A stretch of DNA of 53,356 nucleotides, taken from assembly GCA_013792075.1 (NCBI GenBank), contig VMSR01000119.1, positions 1-53,356 on the forward strand, read 5' to 3'. The stretch is from Desulfobacula sp. (GTDB taxonomy: Bacteria; Desulfobacterota; Desulfobacteria; Desulfobacterales; Desulfobacteraceae). The position numbers and the translations under genes are program-made. Shown here one piece after another: positions 22,078 through 25,844 of the stretch (the first letter of the stretch is position 1; each line of letters starts with the position of its first letter). The notes beneath the pieces were generated by a model. That model did not search any database. It was not told where the DNA came from and saw nothing but the letters and a program-made list of their open reading frames with translations.

Positions 22078-22767
22078 TTAATGAGATTCCTCAATGGCGC
22101 CTGCAATATACATGGTTGCCAAGAGAAAGAACACAAACGCCTGAACCAGGGCCACAAACGATCCCAAAGCCATAACCGGAAGCGGTGCCAGAAACATGCC
22201 GCCCAAGCCCAGAAGGATGCCCACAACCAGCTCATGTCCTGCCATGTTGCCGAAAAGACGGAAGGTAAGAGACAAAACCCTGGCGGTATGTCCGATAATT
22301 TCAATGGGGAGAAACAAGGGAATCATGGCCGGAACAGGCCCTAGAAAATGCTTGATATATTTGATACCATGGCGTTGTACTCCCACCACATGGCTCCAGG
22401 ATACAGCAATCAAGGCAAGCCCGAGCGTGGTATTAATATTGGCGGTGGGCGGGAAAAAACTAGGAACAAGCCCCATGAGGTTTCCCAAAAGAACAAACAA
22501 AAAGATGGTCAAAACCAGGGGATAAGATTTTCTGCCTTCGTCACCTGTAATTGTTACCATGAATTCTTCAAGGCCTGAAATCAGCACCTCAAAAACATTC
22601 TGTGCAGTTTTCGGGACCATGGAAACGCTCTTCCCTGCTATCCAGCCAAAAAATATCAATATGATCATGGCCAGCCACATATAGGTAACATGCGGGTGGG
22701 CTGCTGCCCACTCTCCCATTCCCAGCATTCCAAACAATGACGTTAGTAACAAATATGGATGTTCCAC
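22078..22767 (-). CDS. atpB: ATP synthase Fo subunit a
   Basis: The 229-residue polytopic membrane protein has the subunit a signature in its C-terminal half, RVLSLTFRLFGNMAGHELV, with the essential Arg that faces the c-ring. It forms the ion half-channels of Fo. It lies between atpI (1 base away) and atpE. Its length is normal for bacterial subunit a. Confidence 0.96.
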   Translation of the reverse strand: MEHPYLLLTSLFGMLGMGEWAAAHPHVTYMWLAMIILIFFGWIAGKSVSMVPKTAQNVFEVLISGLEEFMVTITGDEGRKSYPLVLTIFLFVLLGNLMGLVPSFFPPTANINTTLGLALIAVSWSHVVGVQRHGIKYIKHFLGPVPAMIPLFLPIEIIGHTARVLSLTFRLFGNMAGHELVVGILLGLGGMFLAPLPVMALGSFVALVQAFVFFLLATMYIAGAIEESH

Positions 22768-22768
22768 C

Positions 22769-23170
22769 TTATACCGCCTCCTTGAAAAATAATCTCGTTA
22801 ACTCAAGCAACGTTGCCAGAAACATGCTTGCAACAACCACCGAAAGTCCCGCCAAAAGGCCTAACGGATGAACAATATGGTTTGATATAAGCAGAAAAAT
22901 GAGACCGCCGCTTATTACAAATCGGATATAATATTTCACCAGAACATTCCCCACAAGGGAACGCCCTTTTACGGATACCACTTCAGGGCTTAAATTATTA
23001 ACAATTGTTTTCTTCAATAATTGAAAATTGACTGCCACAATCAGACCGCCCAACAACACCCCCAATGAGACCTTGGTCGGGGTTGTCATCAGTGCCAGTA
23101 AACTGCTGCCCATGAACAGCAACCAATTGGTTTTGGTGACAAAATTAACAATTTTCTGAAGATCCTGCAT
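22769..23170 (-). CDS. atpI: ATP synthase protein I (AtpI-like)
   Basis: The 133-residue protein has four predicted membrane helices and sits directly before atpB, the usual place of atpI. AtpI proteins help assemble the c-ring and, with AtpZ, may handle magnesium. Its start overlaps the atpZ stop by one base. Sequence is poorly conserved in the family, so position carries much of the call. Confidence 0.8.
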   Translation of the reverse strand: MQDLQKIVNFVTKTNWLLFMGSSLLALMTTPTKVSLGVLLGGLIVAVNFQLLKKTIVNNLSPEVVSVKGRSLVGNVLVKYYIRFVISGGLIFLLISNHIVHPLGLLAGLSVVVASMFLATLLELTRLFFKEAV

Positions 23171-23502: not shown

Positions 23503-24552
23503 TTAAATAATATCCAAAAACCCTGTGCTGTTCTCTTTGGTAACCTCGCCGATAACCCGGGCGTTTATTCCGATTTTCTCCATTTGTGCCACACAGAAAG
23601 GAGCATCCTCTGTTTTCAAACTTATCAAAAGCCCACCCGAGGTCTGGGGATCGAACATCAGGTCCACCAGTGCCAGGGGCAGGGCAGGAGAAATCCGCGT
23701 TAAGTCCTTGAAAAATGCCCTGTTTTTATGGGCACCCGCCGGAACCAGCCCCATTTGGGCAAAGGCGAAAACATTCTCCAGCAAAGGAACCTTTTGTGAA
23801 TAAAGGGTTATCTGTTTTTTGGCTCCCTTTGCCATCTCCATGAGGTGGCCGGCAAGTCCAAATCCTGTCACATCGGTGCAGGCATTAACCGAAAATCTTG
23901 CCATCAGTTCGGCCGCATATCGATTGAGGCATGACATAACGGCAACCGCTTCCCGGATATGACTTACTTCTGCAAGGCCTGCCTTGATGGCCGTTGACAT
24001 GATGCCGGTTCCAATGGGTTTGGTCAGAATGATGGCATCACCTACCCTTGCAGTGGAATTGGTCAGCACCTTGTCCGGATGCACAATCCCGGTGACGGAA
24101 AGTCCGTATTTAAATTGCGGGTCATCCACGGAATGACCGCCCACGAGGACGGCACCAGCCTCATTGATTTTGTCCTGCCCCCCTTTTAATGTCCGGGCAA
24201 GAACATCCTCGGGAAGATCACAACTGGGAAAACAGACGATATTCATCACTGTCAAAGGGGTCCCGCCCATGGCATAAACATCACTTAAGGAATTGGCGGC
24301 CGCAATCTGACCAAACTCATAGGGATCATCTGTGACCGGGGTCAAAAAATCCAGGGTCTGGATCAGAGCGGTCTGGTCATTGAGCCTGAAAACCCCGGCA
24401 TCGTCCGGCGTGGCAAGCCCCACGATCAAATCCGGATGGGATAATATATCAAGCCCTGAAACAATTCGATCCAGCGTCCCTGGATCCAGTTTGGCCGCTC
24501 AACCCGACGCCGTCACACGCTGGGTTAACAAAATTTTCTCTGTCTTTTCCAT
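23503..24552 (-). CDS. selD: Selenide, water dikinase SelD, a selenoprotein with in-frame UGA
   Basis: SelD makes selenophosphate from selenide and ATP. A plain open reading frame begins only at 24429, but the frame continues upstream through a TGA at 24499-24501 to an ATG at 24552. The upstream part ends TASG, then the UGA, then AAKL, which is the SelD active site where Sec (or Cys) stands three residues before the catalytic Lys. Reading UGA as selenocysteine gives 349 residues with Sec18 and Lys21, the normal length of SelD. A bacterial SECIS-like hairpin follows 12 bases after the UGA. The rest has the usual GGHSVDD and TDVTGFGLAGH motifs. Standard annotation would cut off the first 41 residues. 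It lies between pgeF and the Fo genes. Confidence 0.93.
24468..24486 (-). promoter_or_regulatory. SECIS-like hairpin of selD
   Basis: On the minus strand GATCCAG pairs with CTGGATC (7 perfect base pairs) around the loop GGACG. The stem starts 12 bases after the UGA codon at 24499-24501. A short stem with G-rich apical loop at this distance is what bacterial SelB needs to insert selenocysteine. The hairpin lies within the coding sequence, as bacterial SECIS elements do. Confidence 0.8.
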
Positions 24553-24610
24553 TCATATGCTCTTTACTATATAATTAACCAGGACCCCAAACAATGATCA
24601 CCTGTTCGCC

Positions 24611-25360
24611 CTAGTTCTTCAATGATATAACACAGGCAAACCTGCCGGTTTTTTTTTCCCGGCGATAGGAAAAAAAAGTATCTGTACTGCAGTGGGTACA
24701 AATATTCATTGTCTCAATATTTTCCTGCTTCACACCTTTTTCCATCAATTGATCACGGGAAATTTTCCAAAAATCAAAATAGGGTCCATCCGGCAGTTTA
24801 TAGGGCCACAAATATTCCGGTATTTCATCCTTATAATTGACAAACTCGGCACAACAGGGTCCCAGGGACGGAGAAATACCTGCCCGGATATGCACAGGAT
24901 CACACTGGAACCTTGTTACCATCACATCAATGCAGTTCCCGATAATATTGTGAACACTGCCCCGCCATCCGGAGTGAACATTTGCAATGACCTTTTTTTG
25001 GGGATCAAACAGCAATACCCCCTGGCAGTCTGCCACCTGGACCATGAGCGCGACGCCTTGCCTGTCCGTTACCACCCCATCTGCAACAATGGGAATTTGA
25101 GGGTTCTCTCCGGTGAACACATGGATCTTTGTCCCATGGACCTGGTTCAAAAAAACCGCCTGTTCGGTCCCTGTTCTTGCCAGTATGCGACGCCTGTTTT
25201 CTGCAACGGCCAAAGGTTCATCCCCTGAATTCAACCCGACATTCAACGAATCAAAGCAAAGGGAGCTCACACCCCCTGCCCGTGAAAACACGGCGCAAAA
25301 AAGGTCTGCATAATCCTTAAACAGTTCAAATTCAAAGGCTTTAATTTCAGATCTGCCCAT
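24611..25360 (-). CDS. pgeF: Peptidoglycan editing factor PgeF (laccase-domain, YfiH family)
   Basis: The 249-residue protein has the three conserved metal-site segments of the YfiH/PgeF family: NQVHG, ADCQGVLLFDP and NVHSGWRGSVHNI, and the C-terminal CTHCSTDTFFSYRR motif. PgeF removes wrongly incorporated amino acids from UDP-MurNAc-linked precursors; related enzymes have been called polyphenol oxidases. The ATG at 25360 was chosen because the conserved part starts there; the open frame extends upstream only inside the rfaE2 gene. It overlaps rfaE2 by 14 bases. Confidence 0.9.
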   Translation of the reverse strand: MGRSEIKAFEFELFKDYADLFCAVFSRAGGVSSLCFDSLNVGLNSGDEPLAVAENRRRILARTGTEQAVFLNQVHGTKIHVFTGENPQIPIVADGVVTDRQGVALMVQVADCQGVLLFDPQKKVIANVHSGWRGSVHNIIGNCIDVMVTRFQCDPVHIRAGISPSLGPCCAEFVNYKDEIPEYLWPYKLPDGPYFDFWKISRDQLMEKGVKQENIETMNICTHCSTDTFFSYRREKKTGRFACVISLKN

Positions 25361-25844
25361 AATAAAGCCTGCCGATCCGTTCAATGATCTTTGTGGTGGA
25401 AATATCGGGTTCCAGGACAATTCGTTCCACCCTGCCCCCGTTTTCCCTGACAAAGGCAGCTCCCACGATCTTATCCTCAGTCCAGTCCGCCCCTTTGACA
25501 AGGATATCCGGACAAATGGTTTCAATCAATTGACCCGGATCCGGATCATCAAACAGAACCACATGGTCCACAAATTCAAGGGCGGACATCACACAGGCCC
25601 TGTGGGCCTCACCAATTATCGGGCGTTTTTCCCCCTTGATTCTTTTTACCGAAAGGTCGGAATTGAGTCCCACCACAAGAACATCGCCAAGGGCTGCCGC
25701 CATGGAAAGATAAGAGACGTGTCCTGCATGGAGGATATCAAAACACCCGTTGGTAAACACAATACGTTTGCGGCCGGCCCGGTAGACATCTGCCAGGGAC
25801 CTGATTTCGTCAAAGCCAACTATTTTACCTGTTTTATTGTCCAT
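25347..25844 (-). CDS. rfaE2: D-glycero-beta-D-manno-heptose 1-phosphate adenylyltransferase
   Basis: The 165-residue protein is a stand-alone cytidylyltransferase-fold domain with TNGCFDILHAGH (HxGH at 39-42) and the LILxxGADW-like segment VKGADWTEDKIVG. This matches RfaE2, the C-terminal half of HldE, which makes ADP-heptose for the lipopolysaccharide inner core. The kinase half is not in this window. Its start overlaps the nitrilase-family gene by 11 bases. Confidence 0.92.
   Translation of the reverse strand: MDNKTGKIVGFDEIRSLADVYRAGRKRIVFTNGCFDILHAGHVSYLSMAAALGDVLVVGLNSDLSVKRIKGEKRPIIGEAHRACVMSALEFVDHVVLFDDPDPGQLIETICPDILVKGADWTEDKIVGAAFVRENGGRVERIVLEPDISTTKIIERIGRLYYGQI

Follow-up and report, generated by a model that had tools for sequence, protein, structure and literature searches.

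The selD gene for selenide, water dikinase lies on the minus strand of the window (the whole stretch of 53,356 nucleotides of Desulfobacula sp. DNA analysed here), where its frame runs from an ATG to a TAA stop codon through a single in-frame TGA (Table 1). The N-terminal reading is MEKTEKILLTQRVTASG-U-AAKLDPGTLDRIV..., and the motif around the UGA is ASG-U-AAK, as given in the original prediction, which had been made from the letters of the window. That prediction had also claimed that the first 41 residues would be lost in normal gene calling, and exactly 41 are lost in the ordinary ORF list, which presents selD as a 308-aa frame at 23503-24429 beginning with TTG.

In profile searches, with C put for U, the full-length product scores 375.3 bits against TIGR00476 (cut-off 125) and 329.4 bits against NF002098 (cut-off 299), which makes it a member of the SelD family by equivalog model. 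The AIRS (PF00586) and AIRS_C (PF02769) domains also score over cut-off, both following the N-terminal Cys/Sec loop. Two solved SelD structures can be aligned with it, chain 2yye over residues 7-342 and chain 3u0o over residues 6-338; both carry Cys opposite position 18.

Table 1. Features of the selD locus, in window positions.
Feature	Position	Strand	Details and evidence
selD (selenide, water dikinase)	23503..24552	-	349 aa with Sec18, TAA stop included in the positions; TIGR00476, AIRS/AIRS_C
UGA codon 18, very probably read as selenocysteine, at the active-site position	24499..24501	-	TGA in 84/84 family copies; opposite Cys of 2yye and 3u0o
41 N-terminal codons missed by calling from TTG 24429	24430..24552	-	ORF list against full frame
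Bacterial SECIS hairpin, 7-bp stem GATCCAG/CTGGATC, loop GGACG	24468..24486	-	Folding, conservation, covariation, published model constraints

Two neighbors of selD deserve mention. The frame for PgeF (window 24611-25525) has 304 aa when read from its TTG, and the family match starts only at residue 86; the true PgeF start is probably further downstream. Window 22078-23170 holds ATP synthase subunit a (TIGR01131, 134 bits, cut-off 102.6) and, upstream of it, a 133-aa frame without an NCBIfam match; the ATP synthase operon may be split here.

We examined codon 18 in a family set of 86 genomes, which we take to be Desulfobacteraceae, 76 of which had a SelD match. Residue 18 was covered in 84 of the 86 SelD loci fetched (L209 and L210 were without it), representing 74 genomes, and the codon is TGA in every one of the 84, the window's own copy counted. 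The two matched genomes with no covered copy are G073, with a piece starting at residue 24, and G075, with a weak 24% match. Left out of the family counts were weak matches (E of 1e-12 or worse, starting past residue 18, about 24-34% identical) and two SelD pieces without residue 18 (G004:C239 and G042:C38). Many of the family matches begin at residue 1, and the peptide flanking the UGA is conserved among the copies.

A class-wide draw of 291 genomes yielded 265 with a SelD match at E of at most 1e-40. Among the matches listed (down to E 7.7e-110), one TGA occurs in every row that starts before residue 18, the TGA being counted per match row without regard to its position in the row; the two listed rows that lack a TGA begin further in, at residues 53 and 55. 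We also assembled a combined set of 110 SelD loci (30 family and 80 genome_contigs, with duplicates included since some genomes are in both; 94 distinct), of which 108 could be read at residue 18: 84 have TGA, 15 TGC and 9 TGT, two are not readable, and no other codon occurs. Cys at this position (24/110) is confined to loci of less than 50% identity. Where homologues have Cys, the gene has an in-frame UGA, the pattern by which bacterial selenoproteins are recognised.

The nearest named relatives are MAGs that go by the name Desulfobacteraceae (loci L048-L051 and L082, 83-86% identity), followed by Desulfobacula and Desulfobacter among others, and it is on these names that we take the family set to be Desulfobacteraceae. 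Identity is 83-86% within the genus, 59-76% for the nearest copies outside it and about 50% in a further group; one 159-residue piece from outside the genus is 83% identical. A plasmid search found 12 records, short pieces only, at 68-81% identity. Seven of the records give a gene at the matched place, annotated as SelD in every case; one opened record has no annotation at that place.

A second, divergent SelD type was noted in some genomes of the family (L192-L200 and L202-L204), 42-46% identical to the window's copy, with the motif RTCG-U-AAKI, the UGA present, and a downstream stem that does not keep the register of the first type. Eleven of the 12 family segments with less than 48% identity are of this type, the exception being L207. 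Three genomes (G028, G061 and G080) carry the divergent form alongside another UGA-containing SelD, with no Cys copy listed there. In the same-genus genome holding L196, the neighbors of the divergent gene include frames matching OYE-type oxidoreductase and short-chain dehydrogenase models; three further frames nearby had no model match.

Just past the UGA of the window's selD is the hairpin that the original prediction described, a perfect 7-bp stem with a GGACG loop starting 12 nucleotides after the UGA. Its arms are at 24486-24480 (GATCCAG) and 24474-24468 (CTGGATC), with the loop at 24479-24475. The published bSECIS model (PMC13188914, section 5) calls for a stem of 4-16 bp, a loop of 3-9 nt with G in its first two positions, a UGA-to-loop distance of 16-37 nt and an MFE of at most -7.5; the selD hairpin lies within all of these constraints (loop 5, stem 7, GG, 19 nt, -11.8 kcal/mol). 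Taken alone the hairpin would say little, because a stem of at least 7 Watson-Crick pairs follows, with similar spacing, 10 of the window's 1996 TGA triplets (the one in selD among the ten). When the peptide is kept and its codons are redrawn among synonyms, a stem of this kind arises in 1.1% of 20,000 trials. The fold of a 71-nt segment is unremarkable (z -0.57, 52/200 shuffles as stable); for a 31-nt core, chosen around the stem, the energy is -11.8 kcal/mol with z -4.2, and none of 200 shuffles is as stable. An Rfam scan of 24300-24620 gave no matches.

Comparison among relatives is far more telling. Codons 23-29 form the most codon-conserved 7-codon stretch of selD, ranking first of 342 windows among 41 copies with at least 60% identity (own included); where the amino acid agrees, the codon is identical at a frequency of 0.83 in this stretch, against a mean of 0.54. 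Among family segments with 48% identity or more (61 distinct ones), standard pairs fill 401 of the 427 pair cells, whereas controls with one side slid by 1 or 2 bases are 16-52% paired. The basal pair changes in step (G-C in 28, U-A in 10, C-G in 8), and so do the second (A-U 38, C-G 15) and third (U-A 51, G-C 10). The 26 failing cells fall mostly at the base of the stem, 13 in the basal pair and 8 in the next, with 1 in the fourth and 4 in the sixth. Positions 19-20 after the UGA read GG in 56 of these 61 segments.

The stem register is not kept in the 12 distinct family segments of less than 48% identity (29/84 cells), all of which keep the UGA; sliding by +2 improves their pairing to 53/84. 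Among distinct segments of the 110 combined loci, a perfect stem of at least 6 bp occurs in the scanned range in 66 of 70 TGA forms vs. 9 of 24 Cys forms, and mean fold energy is -13.0 vs. -8.5, a contrast that is only supportive because the two groups differ in taxonomy. The codon ranking and the compensatory changes indicate that the hairpin is under selection as RNA, in the register of the segments with at least 48% identity. As sequence comparison goes, the evidence for the hairpin is strong, and what decides against chance is that relatives keep both the UGA and the stem.

The window's own assembly (5.3 Mb, 308 contigs, 98.9% complete, 4.96% contaminated) was searched for the selenocysteine machinery. 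A 475-residue open frame matches the N-terminal domain of SelA, and selB was found at 347 bits (cut-off 242). The tRNA-Sec gene scores 76.9 bits, where the gathering score is 47 and seven weaker matches fall below it; ARAGORN calls the same locus tRNA-SeC with anticodon tca. The original prediction had held that a Sec-type SelD implies selA, selB and tRNA-Sec in the organism, and that absence of selB and tRNA-Sec would count against it; all three are in the same assembly, these last two above cut-off. The genome therefore has the Sec-decoding trait (selA, selB, tRNA-Sec and selD together), with selA identified by its N-terminal domain only. All six genomes of the genus have selB (identity in the other five is 84-89%; in G080 the match covers residues 310-632 only), which speaks against a stray or contaminating contig as its source. 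One SelD homologue was found in the assembly. Neither of two further traits was found in this 98.9% complete assembly: for the selenouridine trait, the best MnmH/SelU score was 25 bits (TIGR03167, cut-off 219.75), and for dual Sec and Pyl code expansion, the best PylS score was 24.5 bits (TIGR02367, cut-off 178.15).

Other selenoproteins, likely to be misannotated, had been expected in this organism, and candidate genes for them are indeed there, FdhA and FlpD genes with in-frame TGA. The formate dehydrogenase model gave 17 match rows, three of them with one TGA, and two of these three are full-length and over cut-off; their UGA context, DHCARL-U-HSSTVAGL, resembles the CCARV-U-HGPSVAG of E. 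coli fdhF (UGAs past the FdhA end in L132 were left out of the reading). For FlpD/MvhD, TGA occurs in seven of 12 match rows, twice in one of them, and all eight TGA of these seven homologues lie opposite Cys16 or Cys67 of the Cys paralogue L144, their positions having been read by pattern search and tblastn (four loci with a minus-strand match). The doubly marked homologue is L148 (G000:C304:35052-35420), with in-frame UGA opposite both Cys16 and Cys67. Three others (L143, L145 and L146) have UGA at the second site only, in the context GUHxG(D/E)C, and L149, L150 and L151 have it at the first site only. FrhD/VhuD with multiple Sec are noted for archaea in PMC13188914. On contig G000:C304 the predicted Sec-FdhA L131 (36328-38331) lies about 0.9 and 4.7 kb from the predicted Sec-FlpD genes L148 and L143 (31220-31588), all on the same strand, a grouping that suggests an electron-bifurcating formate dehydrogenase cluster.

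We consider the window's gene to encode a canonical Sec-containing SelD, with a probability of about 0.97; from the conservation and context described above, its UGA is very probably read as selenocysteine in this relative of sulfate reducers. SelD makes selenophosphate from selenide with ATP; SelA uses selenophosphate to produce Sec-tRNA(Sec), and SelB together with a hairpin decodes the UGA. By analogy with this pathway, the window's SelD would convert selenide to selenophosphate at the expense of ATP, from which SelA would generate Sec-tRNA(Sec); SelB would bring this charged tRNA to the UGA while bound to the hairpin a short way 3′ of that codon. Sec would thereby be inserted into SelD itself, where the predicted Sec18, in the N-terminal selenium-binding loop, would replace Cys as the catalytic residue.

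The UGA might in addition serve partly as a selenium-sensitive stop, such that scarce selenium would halt translation past residue 17 and lower the SelD level, in a self-reinforcing switch. SelD does need Sec to make Sec, and a single SelD homologue was found in the assembly, with no sign of a Cys copy to start the loop; however, the same would follow from any Sec-SelD, and the effect may be weak since little enzyme is needed, which leaves us regarding such a stop as unlikely. Somewhat more doubtful still is a fuller version of this idea, in which the selD UGA would be a selenium-gated positive-feedback switch, turning the whole selenoproteome on or off and inherited as protein; it is entertained because the only SelD found needs its own product for its synthesis, with no Cys copy seen.

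Three further alternatives to a canonical Sec-containing SelD were rejected, on alignment, orthologue and Sec-context evidence. That selD truly starts at or near TTG 24429, with the upstream stretch untranslated, agrees with the output of a mechanical ORF finder, but the SelD active-site loop is encoded in the 41 upstream codons, which can be aligned with the solved chains, many family matches reach back to residue 1, and the peptide at the UGA is conserved; we give this start very little credence. A sequencing or assembly error turning TGC or TGT into TGA, which the original prediction had named as a way in which it could fail, would require only a single base change in a draft assembly of many contigs, yet it is excluded because each of the 83 further family copies that cover the codon, from 73 other genomes, likewise has TGA there, and the stem past the UGA is conserved as well. 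Use of UGA as a general sense codon, for which in-frame UGA in several genes might be cited, is just as implausible, given that the UGAs read lie in the known FdhA Sec context or opposite Cys of the FlpD paralogue, that selA, selB and tRNA-Sec are present, and that window ORFs of 2389, 1021 and 904 aa are without any UGA.

The reading has practical consequences for annotation: where gene calling stops at the UGA, SelD is truncated and its active site hidden, and the UGA-bearing FdhA and FlpD genes are affected likewise. The selD hairpin, a clean case with covariation over 61 distinct segments, can serve as a reference when SECIS elements of the family are modelled.

The window's hairpin can be compared with the SECIS of E. 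coli fdhF, whose GG sits in its apical loop. The fdhF GG is at +19,+20 after the UGA and that of selD at +20,+21, also in the loop; the stem sequence differs, and the selD loop is the 5-nt GGACG. That Sec-type SelD is known in other bacteria, as the original prediction had stated, is confirmed by several papers. FdhA and SelD are described as the most widespread bacterial selenoproteins, and SelD is listed among the selenoproteins of several Deltaproteobacteria (PMC1794560, Table 3). Sec is encoded by 19% of SelD genes in reference genomes, always at the same position, and a structure search recovered the bacterial SECIS of SelD-Sec genes (PMC4561486). Closer still, the Desulfobacteraceae MAG CORE_19_RING_Bin_00001 (Deltaproteobacteria-bbl-31) is reported with selenophosphate synthetase among 34 putative selenoproteins (PMC8318568). 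A contig under this isolate name is our locus L058, whose SelD is 75% identical over residues 1-304 and has the TGA and the same stem and loop. The MAG also uses pyrrolysine, according to the same paper, whereas the window's assembly has no PylS_Cterm match over cut-off. With the bacterial SPS-Sec genes described in PMC1794560 and PMC4561486, the window's gene shares a common family, Sec at the single known position, a downstream SECIS and the company of SelA, SelB and tRNA-Sec, and we found no difference of substance. The Sec-SelD here is genuine but ordinary, because Sec-SelD ranks with the most frequent selenoproteins of bacteria and has already been published for Deltaproteobacteria, a Desulfobacteraceae MAG among them.
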